From Bifidobacteriaceae bacterium (GTDB taxonomy: Bacteria > Actinomycetota > Actinomycetes > Actinomycetales > WQXJ01): a stretch of 56,451 nt of DNA. The notes under the pieces are model-generated. The model was not told the origin of the DNA. It did not search any database and saw only the letters and a program-made list of their open reading frames with translations. The position numbers and the translations under genes were made by a program. Below, in pieces: positions 22,001 to 50,790 of the stretch (position 1 is the first letter of the stretch; every line of letters begins with the position of its first letter). The DNA is taken from NCBI GenBank assembly GCA_031281585.1, contig JAITFE010000091.1, positions 1 to 56,451 of the forward strand, written 5' to 3'.

Positions 22001-25000
22001 GGCGTGAACCGTGATCTGGTACACGCCCTCGACGCATTTGCCTTGGACCAACTGCTCGGAACAGCCAAGATAGCCGGGCCCGAACGCGGTCGGCGCGCTG
22101 TAATGCACGCCGGTCGCCGGATCGCCGTTGGTCGGGGACTGCGCCACCAGCGCGCCCTCAGCGTCCTGGATCGGGTTGCCGACCGCGTTCCCAAGGGTCA
22201 CCCAGATTGTCTGCCAGCCCCACGGGCCGCTCGGGAGCGAGGGGTCCAAGCGGTTCGCGGGCTGGTTCGGGTTGGCGCTCACGGTCATGAAGGAATCGGC
22301 GGCCGTTGGCGGGACTTCCGCGAAGGAGAACGTCTCCGCTTCGGTCAGGTAGAACAGGTCGGAGTCGGAGTTCTTGACCAAGACCCGCTTGCCGGAGTAA
22401 TCCGCAGCGGTCTGGGACCAGATCTTGACGGTGTAGGTGCCCTCTTGGCCGGCGCCAGTCCGCTCCTGGATGACCACCCTGGCGGCCGGCGGCGCCGTCT
22501 CGGCCCAAGTGAGCTTTGGGTTAGGAGTCGCGGCGGCCCCGACGATGGGATTGCCGTTCGCGTCCCGCAGGGTGATCAGGCCGGTGTGGTAAAGGTTCGA
22601 CTGGTCGTGGTTGGTGGCGGAGGTGTCCTTGTAGCCGGTCGAGGTGATGGCGAAGCTTGAGGTGCCGACGGCTGCTGGACCGGCCACGAAGGTGGCCTGC
22701 ACATAGAGCTGGGCTGGCGCGCCGGCTTTGGGCAAGGCGCCGGCCACGCCGTCCACGCGGACTCCGATGTTCTTGACGCCGGCTTTGGTGGAGGAGACCG
22801 CAACCGTGTAGTGACCCGCGACCGCCTGGTCCTCGGTGATTTGGCCGAACACCAGGCCAACGTCGGCGGGACAGGTGGTCCCGGGCGCCGTGGACGGGCC
22901 ATTCGCGCAGGTCAGGGTGAAATCGCTGGCGGGTACGCCGACGGCGTCGTTGCCGAAGGCGTCTTGCAGCCAGATGTCCAGCGTGTAGGCGTCCGCCTGG
23001 GCGGTCGTGGTGGCGTTGGCGACCTGGTCCTCGGTGTCGACAAGATCGATGGTGCCGCTCGCGCCGCGCGAGGCGGACTTGAACCAAACCTTGACCGGGT
23101 CCACGTCCGTCGCGCCGCCGCCGAGTTTCTTGACATAGGTCGTCCCGATTTGGGCTTTCAAGTCATAGCCGCCAACCCGTGTGGCGGTGATTCGGACCGG
23201 ATACCGGCAGCCGCCGTCTTGGCCCAGGACGCAGGTGTAGTCCTGGCCGGCGTCCGTCCAGGCGCTGCCATCCGCGGAGTACTGCAGAACGGCGCCCGTG
23301 GCGATGCCCGATGCCGTCCCCGGCGCCAGCGTCAAGCGCACCGCTTGGCCTTCGAGGGCCGCGTCCACCCAAGCGCCGAAGGCGTTCATGACTCGGCCGT
23401 TGACCGCCAAGTGGACGCTCGACGCGCCGCTTCCAACCACCAGGGGATCCGCTTGGTTGTCGGAGGGCGTGGCGGTCACCGACGAGGCGCTGACGCTCAT
23501 GGCCGGGACGTAGGTGAGCCGGCAGGTGATGTCCCGCGCGGCCTGGTTGCCGGGGATGGCGACCACGCCGGCGGCGGCGTTGACGGAGGCGCCCACGACC
23601 GCCTGGGTGTCCGAGGCGAAGCAGTACGTGTCGACCGGTTGGCCGGCCTCATTCCGGGTGCCCAACTGCCAGCCGTTCAGGCCGACCGCGCCGGGCGCGC
23701 CAATCCCGTTCGTGGAGATGGTGATCTCCCCGGCCGGGTCGACGACGGCGTGCCCAATGCTTGAGACCGCGAACGCCTCCGAACCGTCCGTGGCGATGGC
23801 ATCCGCGCTGGAAGAGGGGGTCGACCCCGAAACGTTGCCCAGGCCAAGGCTCACATTGGCGGCCACGCCGCCCAGGGTGCGGGCCTCCAAACGGACCACG
23901 GCGCCGGCCACGCCCAGGCGGTAGTCCTCGACTTCGCCAGCCGATGTCGGGGTGCTCGAAGTCGGGTTGGACGAAGGCCGGGAGGTGGCCGTGACGGCCG
24001 AATCCGATGAGACCCGGGCCCGCGCGTAGACGGCCGCGAGCCCGCCCGCGGGCAGACCCGTCCCGGGGGTGTAGCTGCAGTACACGTATCCCCACGCGTC
24101 CGGCCTGGAGGCGCAGCCGCCCGCCGCGCCGCCCAACAATTCGGAGTCGAACGAACCCGAAACGGCCCCGGAACCGCTCACGCTGGAGATCCAGGCGCGG
24201 ACGGTGCTGGCCGCCACCGCGGCGGAATCGCCAGTTGCCTGGGCCCGGAAGCGGTAGGTCTTGCCGGCCACCATGATCTGGTCCTGCGCCGGAACCCACG
24301 CGAGTTGGGCGTCGTCTCGGCCCGCCACATAGGGGGCCAATTCCAGACCGTCATCGGTCGGGTGGGAATCTGCGGCCTGGCTGGGCGAGCCGTCCGCGTA
24401 AAGGCCGGGCGCCGACCCGAGCAACAGGTACGGCTGGCCGCCGCGCAGCGGGTGGGCGTACGGGCCGTTCTCCGCGTTGGCGGTTTGGTACGAAGAGGGC
24501 GCATCGCCCCAGGACGCCGCCGTGGTGACGCCGAAGTCGGCCTGCACCGGAGCCAAGTCGGTGGTCATGGTGACCTTGGCGACAATGGCCGCGCCGCCCG
24601 TGGCGGCCAGCGGATTGCCGGTCTGGCCCGCCTGCTGGCCGTCCAGGGCGTCAACGCCGTCAACGCGCGCGCCGCGGCAAAGGCCGCTGACCGTCTGCGG
24701 GACGTAATCCGCTCCGCCCTGGGCGCACAACGCGGTCAGGGTGTTGGAGGATGTGTCGCCGGCCTCGGTGAAAACCCCGGCGCTCGCGTAACTCTGGGTG
24801 GCGTTGACTCCCGCCAGGGTTGGACGCTTCAGGCGCACCAAGAACTCGGTGCTGACCGAGGGCAAGAGCGCCGTGTAGTTGCCCAGCAGGTTGGTTTGCA
24901 TTTCGCCGCGCTTGGTCCAAGTGGTCGAACCGCTGGCGGCGTCGCCCTGCCACAATTCGATTGTGGCACCGGCCAGAGGAGGGTCGCCGGCGACAGAGCC

Positions 25001-26260
25001 GTCACCGTCCACGTCGTTGTAGACCGTGCCCTTCACCACGGGAGCGACCTGGGGACTGGCGAAGTCGGACGGATTGAAGCCGGACGACCCAAGTTCCGCG
25101 CTCGCGCCGGACAGCGTGTTCCACCGGTACATCATGCCGCCCGAGGTGATGGCGTAAAGGGCACCGTCCATGAAACCCATTCCCATTAAATCCGCCGCCC
25201 AGGCCACGCTGCCGTCCAGGACTCTGACGAGCTCGTAGGTCCAGGCCTCGTTGGTGAACGCGCCGGCCGAATCCCTCGGCACGTTGATTCGCATCAAACC
25301 GTAGCGACCGCCGCCGGAGTACACGATCACGTAGAAGTCGCCAAACGCGTCGATGGCCAAGTCCCCGCTGCTGCTCCAAACGTTCCCCGTGTAGGTGTTC
25401 GCCGGGCTCATGGCGTTCCACTGCTCCGAGAGGGTCCGGCCACCCAATCCTTTGACGGTGTCGGTGGCCGCCAGGCAGGTGTAGGTCCCGTTTTCCTCGA
25501 CCCGCAGGATCCTGGGCATGAAACCGATGTTGGTGGCGGTGATGCCACTCAGTTCCGGGGGCCTAGACCCGTACTTGGTTTCAACATAGTTTGCGAGGAA
25601 CTGGGGGCCCGAACGGCCGCCCAGGGCGTACAGGTAGCCGCTTCGAGCGCTGATTTCCGCGCTGTATTGTTCGCCCAGTTTGTCAAGGCCGCAGTTTGGA
25701 AGGGTTCCCCGGGCCGAACCGTCGACCTTCCCGTCGCCCTCCGCCTTGAACAGGCTCGTGGCGCCGCCGTCGGCCGATATGGAGATCATATGGACGCGGT
25801 TGTCCTGGGCGTGCTTGAACACCGGCCCCACGGCGATCGTGTCGCGGGCGCTGGCCCCGCTGCCCTGCGACGTGCCCTCGGCGTCGAACATGGCGGGCAA
25901 GTCGGCCGCGCCGTTGAGGCCGGTGATGGCGGAGGGGTTGGTGAAAGCGCGCAGCCGAGAGGTCACCGCGTAACGGGGGTCGTTCGCGTTGGTGCCAGCC
26001 CCCTTGCCGGAGTTGATCTTGACCCAAAGCTGGTTCTTCGCGAACACGCCGTTCCAGGGCGGGCTTGGCGCCCAGTTGCCGGTGCGGGTGACCGCGTTGG
26101 CGGAGTTGGAGCTCATCCAACTCTGGGCCAGCGTCACCCCGCCCAAGGCGATCGCCCCTGCCGTCAGCAGGGCGACGGGCTTCACGGCTAAGCGCGGCAA
26201 ACGCTTCAGGAAACCCGGACGGAAAGCGGAATTGGGCGCGGAAGAACCCAGTGTGGTCAT
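7004..26260 (-). CDS. Giant (6418 aa) LPFTG cell-wall-anchored Ig-repeat surface protein
   Basis: A secreted, sortase-anchored protein of roughly 650 kDa. Residues 1-56 form a signal peptide (basic start, hydrophobic ALLTAGAIALGGVTLA, cleavage near SANA). About 60-400 look like a beta-propeller-type head (GYLYALGGRSG, MDGALYAITSGG). About 407-480 is an SdrD/Cna-B-like domain (GTVYNDVDGDGS), and near 770 is a GEVEDYRLG element. From about 1,000 to 6,100 there are some 40 invasin/Big_1-like domains of 105-125 residues, each with ADG..., V.D..GNP and ...AG.Y.V.A motifs. Two Big_6-like domains (VVDTTPP, DEDGNVV) precede a Pro linker, LPFTG (6378-6382), a membrane helix and an Arg tail. ATG 26260 has GGGAG 8 bases upstream. 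No sortase gene lies in the window. Role inferred: adhesion or a stalk holding the N-terminal head far from the wall. Confidence 0.95.
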   Translation of the reverse strand: MTTLGSSAPNSAFRPGFLKRLPRLAVKPVALLTAGAIALGGVTLAQSWMSSNSANAVTRTGNWAPSPPWNGVFAKNQLWVKINSGKGAGTNANDPRYAVTSRLRAFTNPSAITGLNGAADLPAMFDAEGTSQGSGASARDTIAVGPVFKHAQDNRVHMISISADGGATSLFKAEGDGKVDGSARGTLPNCGLDKLGEQYSAEISARSGYLYALGGRSGPQFLANYVETKYGSRPPELSGITATNIGFMPRILRVEENGTYTCLAATDTVKGLGGRTLSEQWNAMSPANTYTGNVWSSSGDLAIDAFGDFYVIVYSGGGRYGLMRINVPRDSAGAFTNEAWTYELVRVLDGSVAWAADLMGMGFMDGALYAITSGGMMYRWNTLSGASAELGSSGFNPSDFASPQVAPVVKGTVYNDVDGDGSVAGDPPLAGATIELWQGDAASGSTTWTKRGEMQTNLLGNYTALLPSVSTEFLVRLKRPTLAGVNATQSYASAGVFTEAGDTSSNTLTALCAQGGADYVPQTVSGLCRGARVDGVDALDGQQAGQTGNPLAATGGAAIVAKVTMTTDLAPVQADFGVTTAASWGDAPSSYQTANAENGPYAHPLRGGQPYLLLGSAPGLYADGSPSQAADSHPTDDGLELAPYVAGRDDAQLAWVPAQDQIMVAGKTYRFRAQATGDSAAVAASTVRAWISSVSGSGAVSGSFDSELLGGAAGGCASRPDAWGYVYCSYTPGTGLPAGGLAAVYARARVSSDSAVTATSRPSSNPTSSTPTSAGEVEDYRLGVAGAVVRLEARTLGGVAANVSLGLGNVSGSTPSSSADAIATDGSEAFAVSSIGHAVVDPAGEITISTNGIGAPGAVGLNGWQLGTRNEAGQPVDTYCFASDTQAVVGASVNAAAGVVAIPGNQAARDITCRLTYVPAMSVSASSVTATPSDNQADPLVVGSGASSVHLAVNGRVMNAFGAWVDAALEGQAVRLTLAPGTASGIATGAVLQYSADGSAWTDAGQDYTCVLGQDGGCRYPVRITATRVGGYDLKAQIGTTYVKKLGGGATDVDPVKVWFKSASRGASGTIDLVDTEDQVANATTTAQADAYTLDIWLQDAFGNDAVGVPASDFTLTCANGPSTAPGTTCPADVGLVFGQITEDQAVAGHYTVAVSSTKAGVKNIGVRVDGVAGALPKAGAPAQLYVQATFVAGPAAVGTSSFAITSTGYKDTSATNHDQSNLYHTGLITLRDANGNPIVGAAATPNPKLTWAETAPPAARVVIQERTGAGQEGTYTVKIWSQTAADYSGKRVLVKNSDSDLFYLTEAETFSFAEVPPTAADSFMTVSANPNQPANRLDPSLPSGPWGWQTIWVTLGNAVGNPIQDAEGALVAQSPTNGDPATGVHYSAPTAFGPGYLGCSEQLVQGKCVEGVYQITVHAGHPGDHQIKVAYAPGGTPLWLVPAQTTGLDHVVARFVTPAASAADSVFVLGDPVNFPGESAGGQDDWNDPADQPDGGDSVEHATSLPFHPNVRVWDGGRNNPVGEVDVTFALTPAAPGGVCAARFTGNAASVTVQSSDMGRASATVNSSTATECVITATIEVGGQAVGIPGSPKKLTWAFSEVDHNLSDYTVSRADVRADGVDTGSVTVRLYALGGDPIDNAAAGLTPRGQQGSGLSFSAFTHDAANPGTYTATFTGTKSGDQLVNVAIEGVDLGLASGGNAYAHMVAGPAVAGASWLVQPDAAAAADGLATLRVKAHLKDGFGNDASGTVRFHIPRDLSALDGAQLITGPADIDVAAANGYATLVVSSTKAATHQVTGALVVDSQTAEAIDVVKNEAEDAEVAGDGKANVTFEAGAPDPGRSRLTIPTTGPDGTQTMLADGQHPHTARVELEDSNGNPSLGAKVVFHWSFSDNQNVLRTGFSAPITPVISAQGQAVAEWTFASTVAKEWTITAELIDGASGFVAPTTGVKAGFHPGDPHPGNTVASLQVGQNTARADGAAAVPAWMTVQDLFGNPVPNDATGCGFELAYPGEEGAKFEDAALGGKTAGGVAADGSGVCLVQIRSYFAGSYPVKGIFAGAESQPPRPVATFSNVTVDASLSDFSVAPWAQNASPAKVVANDQDAYEVTVNLKTDTGALANNEEATVHWRLAAGGAEYTLVVRTGTGGTVGQAKGLIRTTVAGVYEVWVQYADAKIPVLGSSPTAYEARAVFSPGDPDSEATKATFDYSKGKVLNDEVQAHWALVTVKDAFGNLVPEADVTFTLDSAKSAYFVDSEGNRLSNPLTVASSDTGLARVLLVDSEIETTHLVVRLGSASGPQVGEADFQFATDPPNALESSFVITPDPTVEANYRTADGVDHYTGVVTLCDEHGLNVGAGYPVALEVPGDLLATPGGPYVTDQNGQVTVRFTTVKADVYRVNALIGAAKIGPADQEITFVAGPAVAANSELSVSSGKPLADGQATHSATVKVVDAHGNAVAGQVVAFTVSEGAQGVAGPEFTGTGQPQATAASCDPGLQGAPDWCVEKGLARVYIVSNEPGTFAVAAALGANPVKHSPLDVMFSAGEPDPDKSFRTVTPDTDKDPAAKVPASGTDAYSVDVTVISVNGIKVDAAAVRLTVDSPDVAVKDLAGLDANGSTRATGVAMSDHYGTYAWTATSLKAGVYYGKVEVLTEGNVWRQVGARVELRFKALAPGAEHSWLVQPDGTGVANDSQTLPVKVRAYDKNGNPADSGTVVFAIPAGTAVEGVAGPGPVTVDIVDGVALINVRATVAAIHEITATIGGEPVETVKNAAEDRTLRPDGIVLLEFRHGDPAPGNSMLTIPTTADNPPTKLVGGADKHRAEVVVKDAFDNLVANGAAQVAFSWSYTDNAGRLITASTAARPTPTDANGVAKWEFGSDVATTWTITARVEGTSADANGSPKHATFRAGTIDAGKTLATFDVDSTLQKPNGVAFAWAKMRAVDAYGNPLEGETLDFGLEYTGNGPLYNAAPGGSKTTTRTSGADGWTEARIYSNWAGDFDAYGELAGTRSEYKQVHFSDAVADPNTSSFKVEAAPTNTVHPKALANGVESYQVTVTLRDSEIHLVNAGSRVYFTPQGVPGAEAFDVQATGGAQGTGVVVVPFTTLKAGLWKVEVKIGDDPIGTELNPAVKEALVEFLPLEADAGKSKLISPASPARANGMDTQVVTAELKDANGNVTGGTVDFVIPGGVSALKADGAWTAGPGTVSIPTGDPAAGGTAGTALLVLRSTVYDPSQHPVTVYLITASVGGVGITDGSPARARFTNADLSAAQSVFTIPSTTDGQGNWVKKAVVAEHHNPTVTLKDSSGNVYTPPTAVTFSYRLENTAAWSPGPVLTTENGTAAWGDFTVTQAGVYEVRATIASGQIPDGNTVRLAEFKPGPADPATSEFTSSAGSKILPNDTSAHYAQVVVKDSHGNVREGDLVTFTLPAGGDAHFATPGCDTWSCELLSSDIGRARVLITSARATTARVRGLLGADLVGEADLVFEADQADAASSTWRITPSGTRVADGVEYFTAEVQVNDANGLAKQGARVLFDVPGAVRVLEPESSWVSDANGQVTVRFVSEVADVYKVSALIGNDRIRPGEKEIEFVAGEISFDADKTFLTEPGFSALVGGQEQVVVATVQDAKGNPVRGAWIKFEVPEFTSLAPGAFDELQVDRNGEARLRLVSNKAGTYEVTAQAKKDSGGAYQAIVGGSPAHVTFTNLPASPGHSRISTADAGPKKADGAESYTVKVELFDQYGNEVEGAGKAVAVTFTLYTEDGSAPQPGVASLVENTATNAHGVATVPFATTKAGLWKATATIAEGPVEIGSPLALPFVAGQAAAGASDFYVSGNNVLADGEARHAAWVIARDVFGNPVLPGAEVRFALLDEGSPNVPGPTLIPADGVAEVCDFEAAPQDKPEWCTEPGKAQVAITSKEPDSFRVTATIDGLTVRRAPLPVSFESGPPSAAESTYTLSPDTASSNVSVTATADGSQTYTLTATIRSAARILVPGARVRLTGLDPTKVFAVEGSFDGYTGVPQSDHYGTYTWHLYSPVADEFTGTLQVDLATNDWADIAPAPFTLRFAADGIDVGESWLVQPAGSRKADGEDAFEVKVHARDANRNDVTQGSVTFTVPPGLKAVSGGAPITGGANVTIAAPIVDGYAKVFYTTTEIGEYTVQASAPGGAILAVKNVTELALDGDQDGKVELGFVNGPVSAARSTLTIPTAEGTPGTKVANGSDAHKARVEAFDEFGNAASREEIVFEYGYGTSFNTVTRLTDDNGVAELEFTSTRAVEYRVRAFVRGSEEVGGSPKHARFVPGEVDVAKTLASFWVNQTPAQADGVAQVEARVKVQDANGNGVDGYEIGFRVGTDLADATLQAYLAPIDDLKTQLGVLSATVAGEAGIATLGVVSRWPGDYPVVALIGPDETAPKLAHFTRDAVSAKHSWFSVAPKPGNAGDPALADGADAYRVSVQVRNPSNTPVNLGGEVHLTPVAGGTPAIYPFTAGADGAPVGTASVDVSTLAAGDYWVAVKVGDESLATEPDGQIIRVQVAFQAGPAFAGTSFLTGPLAPAQADGVQTQVITATVRDANGNPLLGKPVVFAIPADVQAVVGGLLLSGPTVTLTTASAGDAAGVATLTLVSTKVGEYPVTATQNGLSIPEGGRPAVARFVNADLSLAGSLFTIPTATDAQGNTVKKEVLREYHHPTVTLYDVSGNLYTPQVPIAFSYRLQGSGVWTPGPTIDTVGGTAVWTGFTVRQAGVYEVRANAPSGQVPEPDAVRLAEFKHGPADAGASAFTTSQGEVLPDGKATHYGQVVVKDAYGNLIEDEPVTFTLPAGDPAQFVAAGPECQPKSCVLKSSATGQARAYLTATAEVTTRVRGLLDATLVGEGDVVFAAEPALAENSRWTITPDGTRVADGVEFFTATVVTKGPSDLAKPGTRVGFEVPPAVRITEPPADWVSDSNGELTVHFTSLTAGVYTVNALIGADKIRRIDQEIQFVAGDISFDPNRTFLTPPRSSAIANGSDEQVVVATVQDAQGNPVLGAWVKFAVPEGTSLAAGTSDELEVDERGEARLRLVSTVAASYEVTAQAKKGVGGNYEPITGNSPAAVNFVAGPVSAAHSRIWTDDVGPKRVGGAESYLVKVELRDEFGNTVLRSGNDVAFRFELAGQPTVERNAQTAGNGVASFAFATNAAGEWLGTAKYGGAAVGAGADSSVRLLFVHSDPDVSGASSFGVSGGTPLADGIQAHSAWAVIRDVHGNPVPDVWVDFTVGIGNPQIAGPVLDSGEAAKSLRTDKDGRAAAAITSNEPGTFQVSGAVAGVAVNGSPKDVQFGTGAPDALHSSYTLAPDTAGPGNANVSQTASGLAADAYVLTAVVRDGADLLVPGAAVRVIGLPSDVLSDKDLSGPLVATGTPADAATYGKFAWQLYSAKAGIYTGKLQVYTQGAWHDIGGPFELRFRAGAIDPDGSWLVEPGTPAPADGVATLTVAAKLHDANGNPADSGTVVFHIPAGVTANGGANSVAGPCDVEVDVAGGVASIRVAANAVGSFTVTAGLKGSPEQAIWLVKNASEDATVNTSGQVTVRFTNTAISAQASELSIPTAGDQVLVGGPTHTAQVLVKDTQGHVVPGAQVKFQYTPGSNAGPHAADYAPNSLAWTTHATASQAVSNADGVARVAFPADVTLAGAHVAQWIWVQAFVEVDGLFRPVGQAEPAPAHPQALKGAEFRAHPTVSLENTVFETFEDAVANDGLERSWARVFVADQYGNGIPGRDVAFELPASQAGALGTPEFVETGGPGGAKRVTVTTCAANLGTVPEECKRDGVYTPGLAYVAITSLYEGVFPVSAVVADAGSPIALGQRPVRFDAGAGVAAASSFTLERTDSSTPIVRANGEDSYTLTVTVMNGLAGAASRPVSGECVVPQLPNSVNVKTPGPPVGACATPGSYETDLNGRVAFQLVSTTAGTVSVGAKLGASSIPTEAGGLVYTRQAVFVGGAPAATMTELTSPSRPARADDPAGQTVTATVRDQFGNLASCWSPAWEQIPCEIEFAFPAGTWVGSGGARTEGPGVVAAQTGLPDFGAAIQPAGAGQAAVTFLGVEGYFDVTAKVFGAPVELADSVRSAPGVAAPAHIRFTDATSPGQPEVYPSDGGHVDGKVAEEDLGDAAEGELVVVITDEDGNVVATCPVAADGTFDCPLSPRQPDGTELHVVIEDPAGNDSDPAEVVVDTTPPGIPVPKPTDGTELTGRGDSEGDTIIVKNPDGIVLCVTTVGEEPGRTWSCELEPPAAEGDMLIIVEEDAAHNQVSRPWRAGVPELRMAKATLCAGDRQVLAATNFQPNEEVAIAVNGEAVTTVTANADGALTVEWLTSTATGEGEQVVTLTGPLSGDWAGGYDASACKAPPPPPTPPQLPFTGADGLVGLTGAGLGLLLAGFFLLVAARRRGREPEEIR
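7945..9937 (-). repeat. Higher-order cassette 4, truncated (domains A-E)
   Basis: Begins at SWLVEP (residue 5442) with A and B (LSIPTAGD), followed by C-, D- and E-like domains (E: ELTSPSRPARAD). It then passes into the Big_6-like wall-proximal part. C and D are more diverged here than in cassettes 2 and 3, so the domain letters for these two are tentative. Confidence 0.65.
9938..14056 (-). repeat. Higher-order cassette 3 of the giant gene (12 domains A-L)
   Basis: Runs from SWLVQP at residue 4069 to SWLVEP at 5442 (1373 residues), with the same 12-domain order as cassette 2. Equivalent domains are much closer to each other than to their neighbours: F has FTIPTATDAQGN against FTIPSTTDGQGN, H has ITPDGTRVADGVE against ITPSGTRVADGVE, and I shares EQVVVATVQDA and GEARLRLVS. 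Confidence 0.85.
14057..18238 (-). repeat. Higher-order cassette 2 of the giant gene (12 domains A-L)
   Basis: Runs from SWLVQP at residue 2675 to the next copy at 4069 (1394 residues). It has all 12 domains in order: A, B (LTIPTT), C (KTLATFDV), D (FKVEA), E (KLISPASPA), F (VFTIPSTTD), G (EFTSSAG), H (WRITPSGTRVADG), I (KTFLTEP), J (HSRISTADAGPK), K (DFYVSG), L (YTLSPDTA). Confidence 0.85.
18239..21115 (-). repeat. Higher-order cassette 1 of the giant gene (8 domains: A B C D G H K L)
   Basis: Begins at the SWLVQP motif of residue 1716 and ends before the next one at residue 2675 (959 residues). By eye the domains follow the order A (SWLVQP), B (LTIPT), C (ASLQV), D (FSVAP), G (ATFDYS), H (FVITPD), K (ELSVSSG), L (VTPDT). 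Compared with cassettes 2 and 3 it lacks the pairs E-F and I-J. Confidence 0.8.
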
Positions 26261-39663: not shown

Positions 39664-41346
39664 TTAGTCGCGCCGCAAACGGCGATAGGTCACGCGGTGG
39701 GGGCGGGCCGCTTCAGGCCCCAGGCGGTCCACCTTGTTCGACTCGTATGCGGCAAAGTTGCCCTCGAACCAGAACCACCGGCTCGGGTCCTCGTCATTGC
39801 CCTCATAAGCGAGGATGTGGGTGGCCACGCGGTCGAGGAACCAGCGGTCGTGGGCGACCACCACCGCACAGCCGGGGAAGTCCAGCAGCGCGTTTTCGAG
39901 CGACGACAGGGTCTCCACGTCAAGGTCGTTGGTCGGTTCGTCCAGCAGCAGCAGGTTGCCGCCCTGTTTGAGCGTCATCGCCAGGTTGAGACGGTTGCGC
40001 TCGCCCCCCGACAGAACACCGGACGGCTTTTGCTGATCCGGCCCTTTGAACCCGAAAGCCGAGACGTAGGCGCGGGACGGCATTTCAACCTGCCCCACAT
40101 GGATGTAGTCAAGGCCGTCCGAGACGACCTGCCAGACGGTCTTGTCCGGGTCTATCCCGCTCCGCCCTTGGTCGACGTAGGAGATTTTGACGGTCTCGCC
40201 GATCTTGAGTTCGCCCGCGTCAAGCGGTTCCAGCCCCACGATCGTCTTGAACAGGGTCGTCTTGCCGACGCCGTTTGGCCCGATCACGCCGACGATGCCG
40301 TTCTTCGGCAAAGAGAACGACAGCCCGTCGATCAGGACGCGGTCGCCGAAGCCTTTCCGCAGGTTGTTCGCCTCGAGGACGATCGAGCCGAGCCGGGGCC
40401 CCGGCGGGATTTGGATCTCGTCCAAGTCCAGTTTGCGGGTCCGCTCCGCTTCCGCCGCCATCTCCTCATAGCGCTGAAGCCGCGCCTTCGACTTCGCCTG
40501 GCGGCCCTTCGCGTTCTGGCGCACCCAGGCCAGCTCGTCAGCCAGGCGTTTGGCCAGCTTGGCGTCCTTTTGGCCCTGGATCTGCAGGCGCTCCTGCTTC
40601 TTTTCCAGGTAGACCGAGTAGTTGCCCTCATAGGCGTACGCCCGGCCGCGGTCGAGTTCGAGAATCCATTCGGCCACGTTGTCCAGGAAGTAGCGGTCGT
40701 GCGTCACCGCCAGCACCGCGCCGGGGTAGGCGGACAGGTGCTGTTCCAGCCATTGGACAGATTCGGCGTCCAGGTGGTTGGTCGGCTCGTCCAACAGCAG
40801 CAGGTCGGGCTGTTCGAGCAGCAGCTTGCACAGGGCGACCCGGCGCCGCTCGCCGCCGGACAATACCGAAGCCGGGGTGTCCGCCGGCGGGCAGCGCAAG
40901 GCGTCCATGGCCTGCTCAAGGCGCGCGTCCAAGTCCCAGGCGTTCGCGTGGTCAAGCGCTTCCTGAAGCTCCCCCAACTCCGGCAGCAGGCGGTCGTAGT
41001 CGGCTTCCGGGTCGGCGAGTTCTTCGCTGATCTGGTTGAACCGGTCCATCTTGGCCTTGATGGACGCCACCCCTTCTTCGACGTTGCCGAGCACGGTCTT
41101 CGTGTCGTCCAACGGCGGCTCCTGTTGGAGCATGCCGACGGAGAAGCCAGCCGTCAGGGTGGCTTCTCCGTTGGACGGGTGGTCAAGCCCGGCCATGATC
41201 TTCAGGACCGAGGACTTGCCGGCCCCGTTGGGGCCGACCACCCCGATTTTGGCGCCCGGGTAGAAGGCCAAGGTGACGTCATCCAAGATGACCTTGTCGC
41301 CATGGGCCTTGCGGGCGCGTTTCATCACGTAAATGAACTCAGGCAC
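39664..41346 (-). CDS. ettA: Energy-dependent translational throttle protein EttA (ABC-F)
   Basis: A 560-residue soluble ABC-F ATPase with two nucleotide-binding domains. The first has GPNGAGKSS, LSGGERRRVALC and LLLLDEPTNHLD; the second has GPNGVGKTT, LSGGERNRLNLA and LLLLDEPTNDLD. Between them lies the charged linker (KGRQAKSKARLQRYEEM). EttA binds the ribosomal E site and gates entry into elongation according to ATP/ADP. GTG 41346 (VPEFIYVMKRARKAHGDKV) fits the family N-terminus. Only 4 bases separate it from the stop of the upstream surface-protein gene, but a TACCCT box 6 bases before the GTG suggests its own leaderless transcript. Confidence 0.95.
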   Translation of the reverse strand: MPEFIYVMKRARKAHGDKVILDDVTLAFYPGAKIGVVGPNGAGKSSVLKIMAGLDHPSNGEATLTAGFSVGMLQQEPPLDDTKTVLGNVEEGVASIKAKMDRFNQISEELADPEADYDRLLPELGELQEALDHANAWDLDARLEQAMDALRCPPADTPASVLSGGERRRVALCKLLLEQPDLLLLDEPTNHLDAESVQWLEQHLSAYPGAVLAVTHDRYFLDNVAEWILELDRGRAYAYEGNYSVYLEKKQERLQIQGQKDAKLAKRLADELAWVRQNAKGRQAKSKARLQRYEEMAAEAERTRKLDLDEIQIPPGPRLGSIVLEANNLRKGFGDRVLIDGLSFSLPKNGIVGVIGPNGVGKTTLFKTIVGLEPLDAGELKIGETVKISYVDQGRSGIDPDKTVWQVVSDGLDYIHVGQVEMPSRAYVSAFGFKGPDQQKPSGVLSGGERNRLNLAMTLKQGGNLLLLDEPTNDLDVETLSSLENALLDFPGCAVVVAHDRWFLDRVATHILAYEGNDEDPSRWFWFEGNFAAYESNKVDRLGPEAARPHRVTYRRLRRD

Positions 41347-41350: not shown

Positions 41351-44300
41351 CTAGGGTACCCTCGCCGCCTTCCGGCTCCGCCACGCCAGCAGGGCGACGC
41401 CGCCAAGGATCAGGCCCAAGGCGATCAGCGCCGCGAACCCCGCGCTCTGCGTGCCGGTGACCGGCAGCGCGGGCGGCGGCTGAGGCAACGGGTGGATCGG
41501 GGTGACCGTGCAGATCATCCCCTCGGCCGGGTCGCACGCTGGCGCTGCGCCCGCCTGTCGCGGATCGAACGGCGCCGAATCGTACGGCTCGGCGGCGGCG
41601 ACCACGTAATTGTGAAACCACCAGTCGCCGGCCCGCGTCGCCTTGGCGCCGTAGGACACGGTGGCGGTCTCGCCCGGCCCCAGGGCGCCGGTGATCTCGA
41701 GCCGTTGCGCCTGGGGTGCCCAGGCCGCCGCGACCGCCTGGTTGTCCGCTGTTGGAAGGCCCTGCAACTCGCCGTCGTCCAGCACCCAGCCCAGCAGGTC
41801 GTGGTGATTGAGCTCAACGCTGGTTTGGCCCCGGTTCGCGAATGTGACGTTGAAGTTGGCGACTTCCCCCGGGCGGAGGCTGGCCACGTCCACGCTCTTG
41901 CCGACGGTCAACTCTTCGACCGGGGTGACGGTGCACAAGGGGTCGCCGTCCGCGCATTCGTCCGGGACGGTCTGGCCGGGGTCCGCGATCACGAAGTTGG
42001 CGAGAAGACTGTCGCCGCGGTCCGCGAACGGTTTGACGATCACCTGGTACGTGATGACGGCGGCTGTGCCGACCGGCGACGGGATGGTCCCGGCGACCGC
42101 GATGGTCTGGCCCGCCGGGTCGAACTGGGCCGTCAGGCCTTCGGCGTCAGACGCCGGTTCGCCCGCCAAGTCCGCGTCATCCAACACGCCAGCCAGATGG
42201 TCCATTACGTTCACGGTGGCGGGCGCGGCGCCCCGGTTGGTGAAGGTGAGGGCATAGGTGACGGCCTCACCTGGTTTGGCCATGTCCCGGTCGGCCGTCT
42301 TGACCACCTGGAAGTCCTCCACCAGGGTGACGGCGCAGGCTGGGTCCCCGTCCGTGCACCTCGGTTTGGCGGACGGGCCCGGCCCTGCGGGGGTGACGAA
42401 GTTCTCCAGCCGGTGGTCGGCTCGGTCCGCTGACTGGTTGACCAGCACCTGGTAGACGATTCTCGCCGCTGTCCCGACCGGGGCGGGTATTGTCCCGGCC
42501 ACCTTGATGGATTGGGCGGTCCGGTCGAATACGGCGGTCAGGCCGGGGGTGTCTGAGACCGGCGGCCCTGCCAAGGTCGCGTCGTCAAGCACCCATCTGA
42601 GGGAGTCGAGGACGTCAACGGTGGCGGGAGCGGCGCCTCGGTTGGTGAACGCAAGCGTGTAGGTGACGACCTCGCCGGGTTTGGCGACTTGTTTGTCAGC
42701 GGTCTTCACCACCCCGTATTCGCCGACCGGGGTGTCGGTGCAGGTCCCGGCCGCCAGCCGGGCGCAGTTCGGGATGTCGTCTTCGGGGATGTCCGGCCGG
42801 CCCGGCGCGGCCGGGTCGCGGGGCGCGATGACGTTGACCAGCCGGTGGTCGCCGCGTCCCTGGAACGGTTTCACCTTGACCTGATAGGAGACGTTCGCCT
42901 CCTCCCCGGCCGCGAGCTGCCCCGTGATGGCCGCGGTCAACGCCAGGCGGTCGTAGGCGGCCGTCACGTGGGCGTTGTCCGAGGCGGGGGCCTTGACCAT
43001 GGTCGCGTCGTCCGCCAGCCACCGTGTCAGGTCCACAAGATCCACCGCCACTGGGGCGCTGCCGACCGACGCCAGTTTGACGTTGTAGTCCACCGTTTGG
43101 AACGGTTTCGCGAGCGGCGGGTCCGCTGTCTTCGCAACGGCCAGGTCGCGGACCAGATTCGTGGTGCACGGGCGTCCCAACTCCGCGCCGCAGGTCGGCC
43201 GGGCGGTCGGGATCACGGTCCTGGGGCAGGGGCTGTTCGGGTCGGCGCCGCAGACCTGGTCCGGGTAGACGACGTTCGTCAAGACCTGGTCCCCGCGGTG
43301 CTCGCGGTCGCGGACCGTGGCCTGGTAGGTGACGCGGGCGGCCGCCCCGACTTCCAGCACGCCCGAGATCGCCACGGCCTGCCCCTCCATCACGGCTTTG
43401 ACCGGCGCGTAGTCCGAGGCCAGGCCGGTCACGTCCGCGTCATCCAACACCCATTCCAGGTGGTCGTGTTCCGCGATCCGGGCCGGAACCGCGCCGGTGT
43501 TCGTGAACGTGACCGTGTAGCGGATGGGCTCGCCCGCATGGGGCGGCAAGCCGGAATCCGTGTTCGAGGTTTTCGCGACCGTGTAGGACGTCACCGGGGT
43601 GGACGTGCACAGCGGGTCGTCCGCCCGGCACTCCCCCGACCCCGGCCCAATCCTGTTCACCAGGACGCTGTCGGCCCGGCCCTGCGCCTTCACCTTCACC
43701 TGGTATGTGACTTTCGCCGACGCGCCGGCCTTCAGAGTCCCGGCGATCGACAGCACCCGCGCCGCCGGGTCGAAGCCGACGGCGATCGCGGGGTCGGTGG
43801 ATTTGACCGACCCGGACACCAAGTCCGCGTCGTCGAGCACCCCGGCCAAATGGTCGACCAGGTTCACGGGGGCGCCCGCCCGCCCGCGGGTGTTCCACAG
43901 GTCGACGGTGAATGTCGCAACCTGGCCCGGCCGCGCCACCTCCGCGTCCACCGACTTGGCGACGTGGAGGTCCGAGCCGGGCGTTTGGGTGGACACTCTT
44001 TCGCCGGGGGTCTGGTCAATCACGTCGACCGGGCGGATCCAGGCTGTGTTCTCAAGCAGCAAGTCCGAGGCCTCCCCCGAGACGTGCGGGTCGTAGGCGA
44101 CCGTGTAGGTGATCTTCGCCGACGCGCCGACCCCCAATGGACCGGACCACGCGATCCGCTTGGCGGCCGGTTCCCAGGCGGCGGTCCCGGCGGTGGCTTT
44201 CAAGGTGGCCGGGTCGAACGCCGCGTCGTCCAGCACGCCGGACAGATCGTCATAGGCGACGGCCGGGTCGGAGGCGGTGAACCCAGCCTTGCCGACGTTG

Positions 44301-46498
44301 GCCACCGTGACCGTGTAGGAGGCGGTGTGGCCCTTGGCGTGCAGCCCAGTGGTTTCAACGGTCTTTTCGATCGACAGCCCCGGCAGCGGGACGGTGTTCG
44401 ACACGGGGGTTTTGCCGCAGTAGGTGTTCACGTCCGCCGCCCCGGCCGGGCAACCGGTGATGGACGCCTGGTTCGTGCGGGACGCCTCGAATCCGGGCTC
44501 CACCGTCAGTTTGTACGTGATCGTGGCGGTCTCGCCCGCCTTCAACGGCCCCCGCCAAGTCATCTTCCCGCCCGCCGCGCTTGCCGACGCCTGCGACGGG
44601 GAAGAGCCCTTGTCATATGCCGTGGACGCGTACGCCCATCCCGAAGTGTGCGCGGGCAGCACGTCGGTCACCGTCAACGGGTCGGACACGCCGAACCCCA
44701 GCCGCTCCTGGCGTTCCGCCGCCAAACCCGCCGCGTTCGACGTGTTTTTCACCTTCACCGTGTACGCGATGGTCCGCGCCAGCGGGTTCCCGGCGGGCGG
44801 GTTCAGCGCACCCGTTTTCGACACCATCTGGGCGGCGCGCCGGTACAGGCCCACCGGGTCGGACCGCAGCGCGACGTCTTTCGACAAGTCGTTCCACACC
44901 CCGAACTGGACGGTCGCGTTGTTCCCCCAGCACGAGTCCTGTAGCCACGTCCAATCCGGCCACGGCGGGTCGGAGTTCGGATAGGACGGGTCGTAGCACA
45001 CCCACGCGTGTTTGAAACCCTGCGTGGACACCCCCGCCGCCGGAGTTTTCACATCCGCCGAACCCGCCCGCAATGACGCCACCGGGTTTGTCCCCAGCCT
45101 GAGCCCGGTCGACAACACCTCCGAGTCGTCCCAATGCACCAAAGGCCACACCGGGGCGCCGCCGTTCCTGGCCACCGCGTAGCCCGCCAACTGCCTCACC
45201 TGCACCCCGCCGGCCAGCCTCTCGGCGTCGGAGAACGTCTGGTAATACTCATCGCCCTTGAGCAACTGCACCGCCACGCCCACATAGTCCGCGACGACGG
45301 CGTTCCCGCCCGCGTCTTTGCCGTCCCACGACCACGACACGTCCCCCGCCGCCAAGGGCTTCTGACCGGTCTCCACCACGTCGCCGGGATCCGCGTACGA
45401 CCCGTTCCCGTTCACGTCGACCATGACTTGGTACTCGCCTCTGAACCCGGCTATCCCCAACGTTCCCGACGCGCCCTGATACGGCGCGCCGGCGGGCGCG
45501 GCGTGGTCGACCGCCAGCTTCGGCTGCGGCTTGTCCGGCACCCGGTAAACCGGTTTGACGAACCCCTCCTGTCCGGAATGCCCCCAATAGTCCGCCCGCT
45601 CCGGCAAGTCCGCCGCCGGCGGGTCGAAGAACAAGTTAAACTGCCGGTCGCATTCGGGCACCGGGGTGAACACTCCCCCGCCCGTCAGCCCCAGCTGGGC
45701 GGCGGGCGGGTCCAACAGCCTGGAACGGCGCAACGGCACGCAGCCGTCCTTCAGGTACAGGCCCAACCCGTCCGCGACGAACCCCGAGTTGATCCCGTCA
45801 TACCCCCGCACAGCGGTCTCGAACACGGCGCCGTCATCCGCGACCACGTAAACCTCGAAATCCACCGACAACGCCGCAGGCCGCGTTTGGGCGCCCCCGA
45901 AACCCTTCGCCCACACGCGGCCCGGCACATGCGCCCCGCCCGCCAACACCCGCAACTGTTGGCGGTAAACCCAGGACTGCGAGGGCGGGGTGTTCAGTCC
46001 CACCACCTGGGCTTTCCACACCCCGGCCTCCCCCGAGGCGGAGACCGATCCGGACACGCCGTGCCCGGACACCACCGTCGACCCAGCCAAGCCCCCGGAC
46101 GGCCGGTAAAGCTCCAAACGCACCTCCGGGGTGCCGCCCCACGTGGCATATGACCACTCCAACTCCGAGACCGCCAACTGCACCACCTCGCTGGAGTTTC
46201 TCACATACACGTAGAACACGTCATGGGCGTCGCCGCCGCCCGAAGAGCCCCAACCGGCCATGCCCACATAACCGTCCGACGCCGCCTCCGCCGGCTCCCC
46301 GCCGGCCACCCCGGACACCAACCCCGCCAACGCCAAAGCCACCGCCGCCAAGGCCGCCATCAGGCGACTGAGTTTGCGAAACGCCGGGCTCAGGGCGTGT
46401 TTGGCCGGACCCGGCCACCGGCGGAGCGTCTGGGCTCCAGGTTGTTGAGATTCTCGCGCCGCCGGCGAGCCGGCGCGCATGCTGGTTGCGATTTGCAT
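41351..46498 (-). CDS. LPVTG cell-wall-anchored protein with DUF11/DUF7927 repeats
   Basis: A 1715-residue surface protein. A long signal peptide (basic start, then LMAALAAVALALAGLVSG, cleavage near AEAA) leads to a beta-rich N-terminal region of about 500 residues with a FlgD-like stretch (GDVSWSWDGKDAGGNAVV). At least seven repeats of about 130 residues follow, each with (V/A)KTAD, AKPGE.VTYT..FTNRG and WVLDDA motifs, the DUF11/DUF7927 pattern that forms stalks. The C-terminus has a Pro stretch, LPVTG (1678-1682), a membrane helix and a basic tail for sortase. ATG 46498 has AGGAAG 7 bases upstream. It separates ssb from ettA, which are neighbours in many actinobacteria. Function inferred: adhesin or wall stalk. 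Confidence 0.92.
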   Translation of the reverse strand: MQIATSMRAGSPAARESQQPGAQTLRRWPGPAKHALSPAFRKLSRLMAALAAVALALAGLVSGVAGGEPAEAASDGYVGMAGWGSSGGGDAHDVFYVYVRNSSEVVQLAVSELEWSYATWGGTPEVRLELYRPSGGLAGSTVVSGHGVSGSVSASGEAGVWKAQVVGLNTPPSQSWVYRQQLRVLAGGAHVPGRVWAKGFGGAQTRPAALSVDFEVYVVADDGAVFETAVRGYDGINSGFVADGLGLYLKDGCVPLRRSRLLDPPAAQLGLTGGGVFTPVPECDRQFNLFFDPPAADLPERADYWGHSGQEGFVKPVYRVPDKPQPKLAVDHAAPAGAPYQGASGTLGIAGFRGEYQVMVDVNGNGSYADPGDVVETGQKPLAAGDVSWSWDGKDAGGNAVVADYVGVAVQLLKGDEYYQTFSDAERLAGGVQVRQLAGYAVARNGGAPVWPLVHWDDSEVLSTGLRLGTNPVASLRAGSADVKTPAAGVSTQGFKHAWVCYDPSYPNSDPPWPDWTWLQDSCWGNNATVQFGVWNDLSKDVALRSDPVGLYRRAAQMVSKTGALNPPAGNPLARTIAYTVKVKNTSNAAGLAAERQERLGFGVSDPLTVTDVLPAHTSGWAYASTAYDKGSSPSQASASAAGGKMTWRGPLKAGETATITYKLTVEPGFEASRTNQASITGCPAGAADVNTYCGKTPVSNTVPLPGLSIEKTVETTGLHAKGHTASYTVTVANVGKAGFTASDPAVAYDDLSGVLDDAAFDPATLKATAGTAAWEPAAKRIAWSGPLGVGASAKITYTVAYDPHVSGEASDLLLENTAWIRPVDVIDQTPGERVSTQTPGSDLHVAKSVDAEVARPGQVATFTVDLWNTRGRAGAPVNLVDHLAGVLDDADLVSGSVKSTDPAIAVGFDPAARVLSIAGTLKAGASAKVTYQVKVKAQGRADSVLVNRIGPGSGECRADDPLCTSTPVTSYTVAKTSNTDSGLPPHAGEPIRYTVTFTNTGAVPARIAEHDHLEWVLDDADVTGLASDYAPVKAVMEGQAVAISGVLEVGAAARVTYQATVRDREHRGDQVLTNVVYPDQVCGADPNSPCPRTVIPTARPTCGAELGRPCTTNLVRDLAVAKTADPPLAKPFQTVDYNVKLASVGSAPVAVDLVDLTRWLADDATMVKAPASDNAHVTAAYDRLALTAAITGQLAAGEEANVSYQVKVKPFQGRGDHRLVNVIAPRDPAAPGRPDIPEDDIPNCARLAAGTCTDTPVGEYGVVKTADKQVAKPGEVVTYTLAFTNRGAAPATVDVLDSLRWVLDDATLAGPPVSDTPGLTAVFDRTAQSIKVAGTIPAPVGTAARIVYQVLVNQSADRADHRLENFVTPAGPGPSAKPRCTDGDPACAVTLVEDFQVVKTADRDMAKPGEAVTYALTFTNRGAAPATVNVMDHLAGVLDDADLAGEPASDAEGLTAQFDPAGQTIAVAGTIPSPVGTAAVITYQVIVKPFADRGDSLLANFVIADPGQTVPDECADGDPLCTVTPVEELTVGKSVDVASLRPGEVANFNVTFANRGQTSVELNHHDLLGWVLDDGELQGLPTADNQAVAAAWAPQAQRLEITGALGPGETATVSYGAKATRAGDWWFHNYVVAAAEPYDSAPFDPRQAGAAPACDPAEGMICTVTPIHPLPQPPPALPVTGTQSAGFAALIALGLILGGVALLAWRSRKAARVP
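41353..41358 (-). promoter_or_regulatory. -10 box (TACCCT) for ettA inside the surface-protein gene's last codons
   Basis: On the minus strand TACCCT overlaps the TAG stop region of the LPVTG gene and ends 6 bases before the ettA GTG. Its spacing equals that of five other leaderless-type starts here. Confidence 0.6.
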
Positions 46499-46693
46499 GG
46501 TTGGTCTTCCTGTGATTCGGAGGATTCAAAGAGAACACGGAGCGCTTGCCGCCAGGCTCGGCGCCAACGCGGGGCCATGGCGGATGGCGCCACTGCGTTC
46601 AAACCCGCGAACGGCGGTCCTTTCGCGTCGCGGCTCGGCGCGGGCGTCGGGGATCACGCCCGCCCAGCCGGGGGACGTGAGCCCTTTTGGGAG

Positions 46694-47287
46694 CTAGACC
46701 GCGCTGGGCTCGGCCGGGGCCTCGGCGCCAGCGGCCGCGTCGGCCAGTCCGAACGCCCGCTCAACATCCCCGGGATCCTCAAAGCTGGCGAGTTCGTCGC
46801 CGTCAGGCGGGAGGTCCGGCAAGTCCTGATCGGATGGCGCCTGGGCGTTTGGGACGGCCGCGTTGCCCGGCGCCGGATCCTGAGCCCCAAGCGCGGCGCC
46901 CGCCGGGGCACCGGCCGGCGCCTCGGCCGAACGGCGGCTCCAACCGGCCTTTCCCCAGCGCAGATTGTGCCCAATCGACCTGGCGGTTATCTGCATCGAT
47001 GTGCGTTCCCGGCCGTCGCGGTCCGTCCAGAAATGCTGAGACAGACGGCCGGTGACAATCACCGCGTCGCCGTGTTTGACGGACAGCAAGACGTTCTCAG
47101 CCAGGTCTTTCTGGCTGACTTTGACGTCAAACCAGGTGGTCGGCGCGTCACGCCGTTCACCCTGCGAGTCCCACCACCAAGCGGTCGAACCCACTCTGAA
47201 GGTCACCCAAGTCGAGTCTTCGCGGCCGTAGTGCTGCGGGGGGCGGGCCACCCATCCCTCAACCGTCAGCGTGATCTCATTGTTCAT
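46694..47287 (-). CDS. ssb: Single-stranded DNA-binding protein (SSB paralogue)
   Basis: A 197-residue protein with an N-terminal OB fold (about 1-110: TLTVEGWVARPPQ, STWVTFRVGS, TWFDVKVSQKDLAENV, VKHGDAVIVTGRL). A disordered Ala/Pro/acidic tail follows without the usual DDDIPF tip. It resembles the actinobacterial SSB paralogue encoded next to ettA (Rv2478c beside Rv2477c in M. tuberculosis) rather than the main replication SSB. ATG 47287 has AAGGAG 8 bases upstream. It follows the two dynamin-like GTPases, 156 bases after the second. Confidence 0.92.
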   Translation of the reverse strand: MNNEITLTVEGWVARPPQHYGREDSTWVTFRVGSTAWWWDSQGERRDAPTTWFDVKVSQKDLAENVLLSVKHGDAVIVTGRLSQHFWTDRDGRERTSMQITARSIGHNLRWGKAGWSRRSAEAPAGAPAGAALGAQDPAPGNAAVPNAQAPSDQDLPDLPPDGDELASFEDPGDVERAFGLADAAAGAEAPAEPSAV

Positions 47288-47443: not shown

Positions 47444-48778
47444 CTAACTCGCGGGCGGACGGGCCGCCGCTTCGGCCAGAACCGAGATCTCCGCCAACTG
47501 ATCGGCCAGAGCGCGGCGGTCGTCCAACACCTGCTTGGTCGGCCGCGCCATGGTGCGGTCGACCACTGACCGCACGGCCGCGCGAACTGAATCCTCCAAA
47601 GCGGCGCGCCGCTGGCGTTCGACCTTCGCCGGGCGCAGCAGCCGGGACCAGAAGCCGCCCGGCGGGGGCGCCTTGACCGGCTCCAACGCCTGCGCCAGGC
47701 GCGCCGTCACGTTCTGCGCGGACGCCAGCGAATAGCTCACCGCCATGGCCCATTGGTCCGGCAGGGCATAAGTGGCCTCAGCCGCCCAGGCGCTGGCCGC
47801 CTGGCGCACCTCGTCAACTCCGGGCGCCGCCGGATCGGCGATCCCCTCCCGCCCAATCACCTGCTCCACCAGGGACTGGACGACCTGCGCCTCGGCCTTG
47901 CCGAGCCAGTCCGAATCGCCAGCCGGATCAACCCTGATGCGTCCCTCTGGATCCGCCAGTTGGGTCGCGGCGGCGAACTGGGAGGCCGCAGCCGCCAAGT
48001 CGGCCGCCGTGCGCAGCATCGCCATGGTCCGGTGGGCCGTGCGCTCCATCAACTGGGAGCGCAGCGCGTCGATCCCCGCGCCCGTGACAGCCGAGGTGAG
48101 CGCCACCACCGGGTCGGTCAAGCCGTCCTCGACCAGCAGCTTCGTCAGCCCCTGGGCGATCGCTTCGGCGTCGGCTGGGCTGACCGTGTCGATTTGGTTC
48201 GCCACCACGATCGCCTCCCGCCCCTGATGGGCTTTGGCCGTGGCGACGAAACGCTGGTGAAGCACCGGATCGGCGTACTTTTGCGGATCGGTCACCCAGA
48301 TCAGCACGTCCGCCAGCGGCAGGGCGCGCTCCGCGATCAGGTGGTTGGCCTCCGAGGCAGAGTCGTAATCCGGCAGGTCCAGCAGGATCATGCCCCGCAG
48401 TTCGCCGATATGCGACTCAAGGACCGAGTCGCGTTTGATCCACGCCCCGCGTTCCACGCCCAGCCATTCCAGCAGCTCCTCCGCGCCGGTCCCCCAAACG
48501 CAGGCCGTCGCCTTCGAAGTGGTCGGCCGAACCACGCCCACCTCGGAGAACGCCATTTCCGCGATCGCGTTGAACAGAGAAGACTTGCCCGAACCGGTCC
48601 CTCCGCTGATCGCCACGATGGTGTGGTCAACCCCGCGGTCGAGGCGTTCGGTGAGCAACTCGGCCACCGCCAGAGCCTCCAAGGACGGGCCCTCCTCCAG
48701 CCGCCGCGCGCTCAGCGCGGCCGCCTCACGCAGTTGGCCTATCCCGCCGCGCAGCCCTTCGATCTGATCATCCGTCAT
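47444..48778 (-). CDS. Dynamin-like/YfjP-type GTPase (second of pair)
   Basis: A 444-residue GTPase. G1 is GGTGSGKSS (59-67), a G2 Thr lies in RPTTSKATAC, G3 is DLPDYDS, and G4 is NQID. The C-terminal half is helical with an amphipathic, Trp-rich stretch (PPPGGFWSRLLRPAKVERQRR) that may contact membrane. Its ATG overlaps the stop of the upstream GTPase by 4 bases (ATGA), so the two are translationally coupled and probably form a hetero-oligomer. Paired dynamin-like proteins in Streptomyces (DynA/DynB) stabilise division septa; a similar membrane role here is inference. Confidence 0.85.
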   Translation of the reverse strand: MTDDQIEGLRGGIGQLREAAALSARRLEEGPSLEALAVAELLTERLDRGVDHTIVAISGGTGSGKSSLFNAIAEMAFSEVGVVRPTTSKATACVWGTGAEELLEWLGVERGAWIKRDSVLESHIGELRGMILLDLPDYDSASEANHLIAERALPLADVLIWVTDPQKYADPVLHQRFVATAKAHQGREAIVVANQIDTVSPADAEAIAQGLTKLLVEDGLTDPVVALTSAVTGAGIDALRSQLMERTAHRTMAMLRTAADLAAAASQFAAATQLADPEGRIRVDPAGDSDWLGKAEAQVVQSLVEQVIGREGIADPAAPGVDEVRQAASAWAAEATYALPDQWAMAVSYSLASAQNVTARLAQALEPVKAPPPGGFWSRLLRPAKVERQRRAALEDSVRAAVRSVVDRTMARPTKQVLDDRRALADQLAEISVLAEAAARPPAS

Positions 48779-50361
48779 TGGTCCACCTGCTTCGCTGCAA
48801 AGGCCAGCCGGTCCGCCGCCCAGGCCACAGTTTCCGATGCCGTCCGATCAACTTTCGCCACCGCATCGGCGAAGACGGCCAAAGCGAGCCGCACCGCGCT
48901 TTCCCGCGCCTCGCGCAAGTCCTCGCGCGCCCCTTCGGCCAACCCCGGGGCCTTGTCCCGGGCCAGCCTGCCGAGCAGATCGGCGGGCCCCTCCGCCCCC
49001 AACGCGGCGGCCTGGACCAAGGAGACCAGGCCCGAGCGGCCCAGCGCGTCGGCCGCCCGTCCCACCGCCACGTCCTCCGACTTGCGCACACGGGCGCCCA
49101 CCGCCTGGGTCCACAGGCCATAACCGGCGCTGCCGGCCAGATCGCCCGTCAACTCGGTTTGGTCCAGCCCCTCCCGAGTCAACAACGTGCGCGTGCCCTC
49201 GGGCACGTCCTCCCCCTGCCAAGCCGACACCATGGCCGCCCGAGCGTCGGTCATCGTCTGACGGAAACCGGGCCCAACGGCATCGGACACCGCCCGGCCC
49301 AACGCGGCCAACCCGGCCGCCCACCGTTTCCGCTGGGCGGGGGTGGTTTCCTGGCCAATTTCGACATGGCTGAGCGCGCCGTCGGGGCCCAACTGGTCGA
49401 GCCACGCCTCCGTCAGGCGGGCGTCCGGCGATCCGGGCGAGAAATCGGCCGCCGCCTCCATCGCCTGGGCCAACCGCGCTTCGGTGGCCGAACGCAACAA
49501 GTCGACCGAGGCCTCGTGGACGCGCTGCGCATTAGCCAACTCCGCCGTTTGCGCGGCCAGACCGGCCAAGGCGACGCGCAAGTCCGGGCTGTCGGCCTGA
49601 CGCTCGGGGATGGGGAACCGCTCCTCAAGCCACGCCCGCAGGTCGGCCACGCGGTCCGGCGGGAGCGTCTCCGGCGCGCCGGGCAGCTCCGGGATTCCGA
49701 ACAGGGCGATCCGCTCCAGACGCGCCTTCGCCAACCGCTCCCTCACATCCGCCTCGATGACCGGCCAAACGCCCTCCGGCAGGCGGTTCACCACCAACGC
49801 GACCGGCTCCGACTGGTCGGCCAGGCTCGCCAGCAGGTCCCAAACGAGCGAATCCCCGTAGCGCAACGCGGACGTCACCGCCAGCCAGGCCGACATGGGC
49901 ACGTCGGGCTGGGCCTTGAGCGCGTCGTTGCCGACCGCGAACGGGTCCCCGCAATCGAGGACCGCCCAGGTCAGGGGCGCGTCCCAGACCGCGTGGGGGG
50001 TGGCCTCCGACCGGACGCGGTGGTCGCCCTGAAGCGCCATGGTGTCCGGGTGGGCCAGCAACTGTGGATAGGAGGTGGTCGGCCGAAGCGCGCTCACCGC
50101 GCTGAACGAACCGCCGATCAAAGTGTTGGCCAAGACTGACTTGCCCACCCCGGTGGGCCCCGCCACGGCGATCAAGGCCGGTTCGCCCACGGCGTCCAAA
50201 GCCGGAATGACCGTCTTGTCGAGTTCGGCCGCCAAAGCGGCGCGCTTGGCTTCGGCGCGGGCGGAGGCGGGCGCGGGGAAGGGGAACTCGACTCCGTCCA
50301 GCGCTTCCCGCAAAATGCCCACCAACTCGCGGGAAGTGTGGGCCACGGACCGACTTTGCAT
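48775..50361 (-). CDS. Dynamin-like GTPase (first of pair)
   Basis: A 528-residue GTPase. G1 is GPTGVGKS (68-75), the G2 region is RPTTSYPQL, G3 is degenerate (LDCGDP) and the G4-like NRLP follows in VALVVNRLPEG. The long C-terminal half is Ala-rich and helical, as in bacterial dynamin-like proteins. ATG 50361 has GAAGG 8 bases upstream; TTG 50397 is a less likely start. It heads the unit GTPase-GTPase-ssb. A degenerate G3/G4 next to a canonical partner suggests one active and one regulatory subunit. Confidence 0.82.
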   Translation of the reverse strand: MQSRSVAHTSRELVGILREALDGVEFPFPAPASARAEAKRAALAAELDKTVIPALDAVGEPALIAVAGPTGVGKSVLANTLIGGSFSAVSALRPTTSYPQLLAHPDTMALQGDHRVRSEATPHAVWDAPLTWAVLDCGDPFAVGNDALKAQPDVPMSAWLAVTSALRYGDSLVWDLLASLADQSEPVALVVNRLPEGVWPVIEADVRERLAKARLERIALFGIPELPGAPETLPPDRVADLRAWLEERFPIPERQADSPDLRVALAGLAAQTAELANAQRVHEASVDLLRSATEARLAQAMEAAADFSPGSPDARLTEAWLDQLGPDGALSHVEIGQETTPAQRKRWAAGLAALGRAVSDAVGPGFRQTMTDARAAMVSAWQGEDVPEGTRTLLTREGLDQTELTGDLAGSAGYGLWTQAVGARVRKSEDVAVGRAADALGRSGLVSLVQAAALGAEGPADLLGRLARDKAPGLAEGAREDLREARESAVRLALAVFADAVAKVDRTASETVAWAADRLAFAAKQVDQ

Positions 50362-50790
50362 GCTACATACCTTCTTACGTCCGAGCCTTTTACACAAACC
50401 GCTGGGCGCGCCTTGTCTCGGATTTCAGACGGGCCGTACCACATTCTGGGCAGTTCTGGGCCTTCGGGCCCCTCTGGCCGGGTTCCCCCCGGGGTGCCCC
50501 AAGGGGAGCCTATTCAAACCTTGCCCCGTGCGCTGAGGCGTTGTATCCGTGCCGGTCCGGCGTGCGGCATGGTGTTCGACCGACTCATTGAGCGCGCCGT
50601 CGCCGCCGACCCACTCACTTACCGCGACCTCGTCCGGGTCGCGGCGCCGAAGGCCACCCGCCGCGCCGGGCACCGTCCTCGGCGTCGGCCACGTCTTCGG
50701 CCGAACCTGGCCTGGGCGGGGTCGTCAAAGTCAGGACGGGACCGTCGCCCGCTTTTCACCGCCGAGGGTCCGCTTTGTCGACGATCACGA
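50362..50790. other. Stretch without a recognisable gene
   Basis: Upstream region of the GTPase operon plus about 300 bases of unclear content. Open frames exist but show no family motifs and no good ribosome binding sites. A short helix-like reading near 50570-50660 (ERAVAADPLTYRDLV) may be a gene remnant. It adjoins the inverted-repeat element, so it may be degraded accessory DNA. Confidence 0.4.

Follow-up and report, generated by a model that had tools for sequence, protein, structure and literature searches.

How a gene for a large surface protein came to stand between ssb and ettA, and what its presence implies for the expression of ettA, is the question raised by a stretch of 56,451 nucleotides from a Bifidobacteriaceae genome (contig JAITFE010000091.1; the whole stretch is called here the window). 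On its minus strand, two GTPase-like genes are followed by ssb, a gene for a 1715-amino-acid surface protein with an LPVTG motif, and ettA. The ssb gene, the GTPase pair and ettA form a neighbourhood known from Actinobacteria, and their order and orientation match those found in relatives; the difference lies in the 5.1-kb surface gene that separates ssb from ettA in the window. Rv2478c and Rv2477c are presumably such ssb–ettA neighbours.

Gene order and the surface protein

The first gene of the GTPase-like pair (48775..50397, minus strand; start codon uncertain) has homologues 5′ of ssb in relatives and overlaps by 4 bp the second (47444..48778, minus strand), which keeps its position in relatives and gives weak MMR_HSR1 and Dynamin_N matches. 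The pair had been described in the original prediction as dynamin-like: the GTPase-like character stands, while the likeness to dynamins is weak (Dynamin_N at 27.1 against a cut-off of 27 for the second gene, zero Pfam matches for the first). Next come ssb, encoding a single-stranded DNA-binding protein (46694..47287, minus strand; PF00436 above cut-off), the surface gene (41351..46498, minus strand) and ettA (39664..41346, minus strand), whose GTG start at 41346 lies 4 bases 3′ of the surface-gene TAG (41353-41351). The product of ettA is recognized by two curated EttA models, NF008775 (909 bits, cut-off 599) and TIGR03719 (891 bits, cut-off 807). An LPVTG gene between ssb and ettA, with ettA only 4 bases past its stop, had been predicted, and this arrangement is confirmed by the open reading frames, PF00436 and the EttA models.

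The surface protein begins with a signal-peptide-like N terminus followed by a beta-rich N domain and a stalk in which Pfam recognizes DUF7927 in eight stretches (537.6 bits) and DUF11 (115.6 bits). As read directly from the sequence, its C-terminal end consists of the LPVTG sorting motif (41453..41467, minus strand), a hydrophobic stretch and the basic tail WRSRKAARVP*. Sortase-anchored fibrillar-adhesin-like proteins with DUF11 stalks are known in Actinobacteria (PMC9210967). The protein resembles them in its secretion signal, N-terminal domain, array of Ig-like repeats (DUF7927, DUF11), LPVTG motif and the presence of sortase genes (two PF04203 matches above cut-off in the window's genome). 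It differs in that its N-terminal part matches no Pfam family and no PDB sequence, and in that its LPVTG anchor is not among the matches listed in a PF00746 search of the genome at E 0.001. An AlphaFold model of the N domain is beta-rich and of low confidence (pLDDT 64), and a fold search with it gave weak beta-sandwich matches at best. Relatives of the N-terminal 475 amino acids occur in five congeners, and weak ones in further families of the order as well as in Rathayibacter, Okibacterium and Leifsonia; in the window's genome, a second gene with this domain was not found. The congeners are MAGs recorded as ‘Bifidobacteriaceae bacterium’, and their isolate codes hint at the termite gut as a possible source. 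The best guess is a wall-anchored, adhesin-like stalk protein, probably attached by sortase and possibly adhesive. Since a known adhesive N-terminal domain is missing from it, the label ‘adhesin-like’ is preferred to ‘adhesin’. The window also encodes a giant surface protein elsewhere (7004-26260, minus strand), a 6418-amino-acid frame in which Big_1 and Invasin_D3 repeats occur and PF00746 matches an anchor at 7034-7150.

Occupied and empty sites among relatives

A search for ettA succeeded in 53 of 59 genomes, counting that of the window; the sequence surrounding 51 further loci was read, and ssb near ettA was located across loci of the order by an ssb profile. At 35 loci besides the window, ssb lies closely 5′ of ettA, and none of them holds a large surface gene in between. 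The ssb–ettA gap is below about 200 bp at 25 of these loci and about 0.5–0.95 kb at the other 10, compared with about 5.35 kb in the window. Empty sites are found in the congeners G009 (gap of 4 bp), G005 (144 bp), G001 (110 bp), G003 (138 bp), G006 (124 bp) and G002 (89 bp), and ssb also directly precedes ettA, without a surface gene, in G013, G012, G011 and G014 and in other families of the order. A surface gene is thus not a general feature of this site across the order, and the empty sites mark it as an addition, as the original prediction had proposed; sequence comparison supports its being inserted rather than ancestral. Some of the 0.5–0.95-kb gaps hold a short secreted-protein-like frame, and in other families of the order (L056, L060, L079) short lipoprotein-like or secreted-protein-like frames lie between ssb and ettA.

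The insertion is not peculiar to the window's genome, as the congener G007 carries a gene of the same kind at the same site, its product being 61% identical to that of the window across most of the protein. In G007, one contig shows an ssb-tail-like frame and, 55 bp further on, the beginning of the surface gene, and another shows the end of the surface gene, 385 bp and then ettA. At the end of G007 contig C110 (L095 3840-4382), the sequence shifts abruptly inside the surface gene to an AT-richer, rRNA-like stretch and is probably chimeric; this contig end touches neither junction.

Members of the same gene family occupy other boundaries in congeners. Paralogous LPXTG-type genes (L096 4978-9540; L097 5467-9654; L098 7868-11677; L090) lie directly 3′ of rdgB in G005, between dusB and a convergent FtsX-like gene in G002 and G003, and next to dusB in G008. 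These sites have empty counterparts elsewhere, and in the window's genome neither the rdgB nor the dusB site holds a member of the family. Together with the gene at the ssb site, the paralogues indicate that the family occupies differing housekeeping boundaries across the species of one genus. In G006, another secreted-protein-like frame (L168 3-1235, minus strand) follows dusB, where congeners carry the LPXTG gene.

How many events account for the two genes at the ssb–ettA site is less clear. In trees of rpoB, gyrA and ettA, the window's genome (G000) groups with G004, and G007 is placed, with weak support, near G005 and G001, both of which are without a surface gene at this site; the assembly of G004, the closest sister, lacks the entire locus, ettA and the GTPase included. 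Given the position of G007 nearer to the gene-less G005 and G001, a single insertion requires later losses, or else lateral transfer between lineages has occurred; the sequences are compatible with either history. A variant of the explanation favoured below, from which it differs in the number of events, is that the related genes of G000 and G007 represent two independent arrivals at one site, or lateral transfer via the conserved flanks. The separation of G000 from G007 in the three trees speaks for it, as does the occurrence of the family at three different sites among congeners; nonetheless it seems rather doubtful, since the two proteins are mutually closest (62% identity in the N-terminal part versus at most 44% to the others) and the silent sites of the surface genes have diverged no less than those of the flanking genes. 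Between the window and G007, fourfold-degenerate positions agree at about 50% in the surface gene, as against about 55% in ettA, mscS and pepN, so that the surface copies appear to have split at least as early as the species, with no recent exchange. That unrelated contigs were joined by a binning or assembly artefact is hardly credible, even though the window belongs to a draft of 169 contigs and one contig end of G007 looks chimeric: composition is uniform, and the same two junctions, with conserved flanking genes, recur in two drafts, which makes such an artefact unlikely. Recent transfer marked by foreign base composition was ruled out for the surface gene, whose GC content (69.5%) and GC3 (0.88) resemble those of its neighbours. 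At its edges, neither terminal inverted repeats nor flanking direct repeats of note were found; the repeats recovered in the search for mobile elements are internal repeats of the stalk.

The start of ettA and the end of the surface gene

In 35 of 52 loci, against a background of 3.7%, a TANNNT motif starts at positions −16 to −10 relative to the first base of ettA, the usual layout in the family being TAnnnT, six to seven bases and GTG. In the window, the motif is TACCCT (41353..41358, minus strand; −12 to −7), a putative −10 box that overlaps the codons GTA and CCC and ends on the T with which the surface-gene TAG begins. The earlier proposal that ettA keeps a −10 box in the last codons of the surface gene thus agrees with a motif widespread among relatives. 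A scan for sigma-70 hexamers found nothing. In Mycobacterium tuberculosis, mapped promoters carry TANNNT 7–12 bp 5′ of the start without a conserved −35 element, and many transcripts are leaderless (PMC3898074). The putative ettA box resembles these promoters in its distance from the start codon (−12 to −7) and in being without a recognizable −35 element; it differs in overlapping the stop of an unrelated upstream gene. Given that TANNNT is widespread just 5′ of the ettA start, a leaderless promoter belonging to ettA itself is most likely, with TACCCT probably active as such in the window. EttA is essential in M. tuberculosis (PMC9159947), and essentiality would explain why the box was retained.

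The origin of the junction is suggested by G009, where ssb itself ends in GCGCGGGTACCCTAG TGCG GTG, with the C terminus ARVP* and a stop that overlaps the ettA −10 box 4 bp 5′ of ettA. The surface gene of the window ends in GCGAGGGTACCCTAG TGCG GTG, again with ARVP* and the same TAG. Because an ssb gene shares this end, the terminal codons of the surface gene are best taken for ettA-promoter DNA; C-terminal tails of their own are seen in the surface gene of G007 and in its G005, G003 and G002 paralogues. The seamless junction had been attributed to the insertion itself, a view that the spacer of 385 bp in G007 does not support; the junction may rather be secondary. The likeliest event is a deletion that removed a G007-like spacer and joined the surface gene to the TAG present in the −10 region of ettA. 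The opposite polarity, growth of the spacer in G007, is conceivable, as that spacer is repeat-rich.

It is probable, therefore, that an adhesin-like gene was inserted at a site made tolerant by the leaderless start of ettA. A sortase-anchored, fibrillar-adhesin-like gene would have entered the ssb–ettA site in the lineage of the window species and at least one congener (G007), and in the other congeners would have been lost or never gained at this site, an accessory gene at the boundary of a housekeeping operon. Its entry would have been tolerated because ettA appears to start its own mRNA from the −10 box directly 5′ of GTG, and the deletion in the window lineage would have followed. For the entry of an accessory surface gene, a single genus shows the unoccupied state, a form with a spacer (G007) and a compressed one (window), which suggests that genes such as ettA can take on new neighbours at their 5′ side when they bring a self-contained leaderless promoter with them.

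Expression of the surface gene and of ettA

Two further readings would link the surface gene to the expression of ettA. According to one, both genes form a single transcription unit in which ribosomes stopping at TAG restart at GTG, so that EttA output tracks that of the adhesin. The 4-bp spacing, too short for a separate terminator, and the lack of an obvious Shine–Dalgarno sequence near the ettA GTG are in its favour, but the TANNNT that most relatives without a surface gene have at this position predicts an independent start, and the two genes of G007 are 385 bp apart, which leaves such coupling improbable. According to the other, the ettA promoter is held within the C-terminal codons and stop of the adhesin, and transcription of the adhesin hinders or boosts ettA, tying surface display to translation control; this is considered very improbable. 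On the favoured reading, that of an insertion tolerated at this site, ettA apparently has its own promoter, so that the neighbours need not be co-regulated. The proposal that the adhesin had functionally joined a block for translation, DNA and membrane maintenance is left unsupported, and the case is one of ordinary gene gain with a neat stop/−10 junction, not a new system.

The surface gene itself is separated from ssb by a gap of 195 bp (46499..46693, minus strand) without TANNNT; this absence was dropped as a sign of co-transcription with ssb, 85% of the 195-nt stretches of the window being likewise without the motif. About 24 bp 3′ of the ssb stop, the gap contains a GC-rich hairpin (46632..46669, minus strand) without a T run, a possible partial terminator whose z value of −1.27 is not clearly distinct from shuffled sequences. 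The surface gene would be expressed as part of the ssb unit or driven by a promoter not recognized here, and an SD-like AGGAAG lies 5′ of its ATG.
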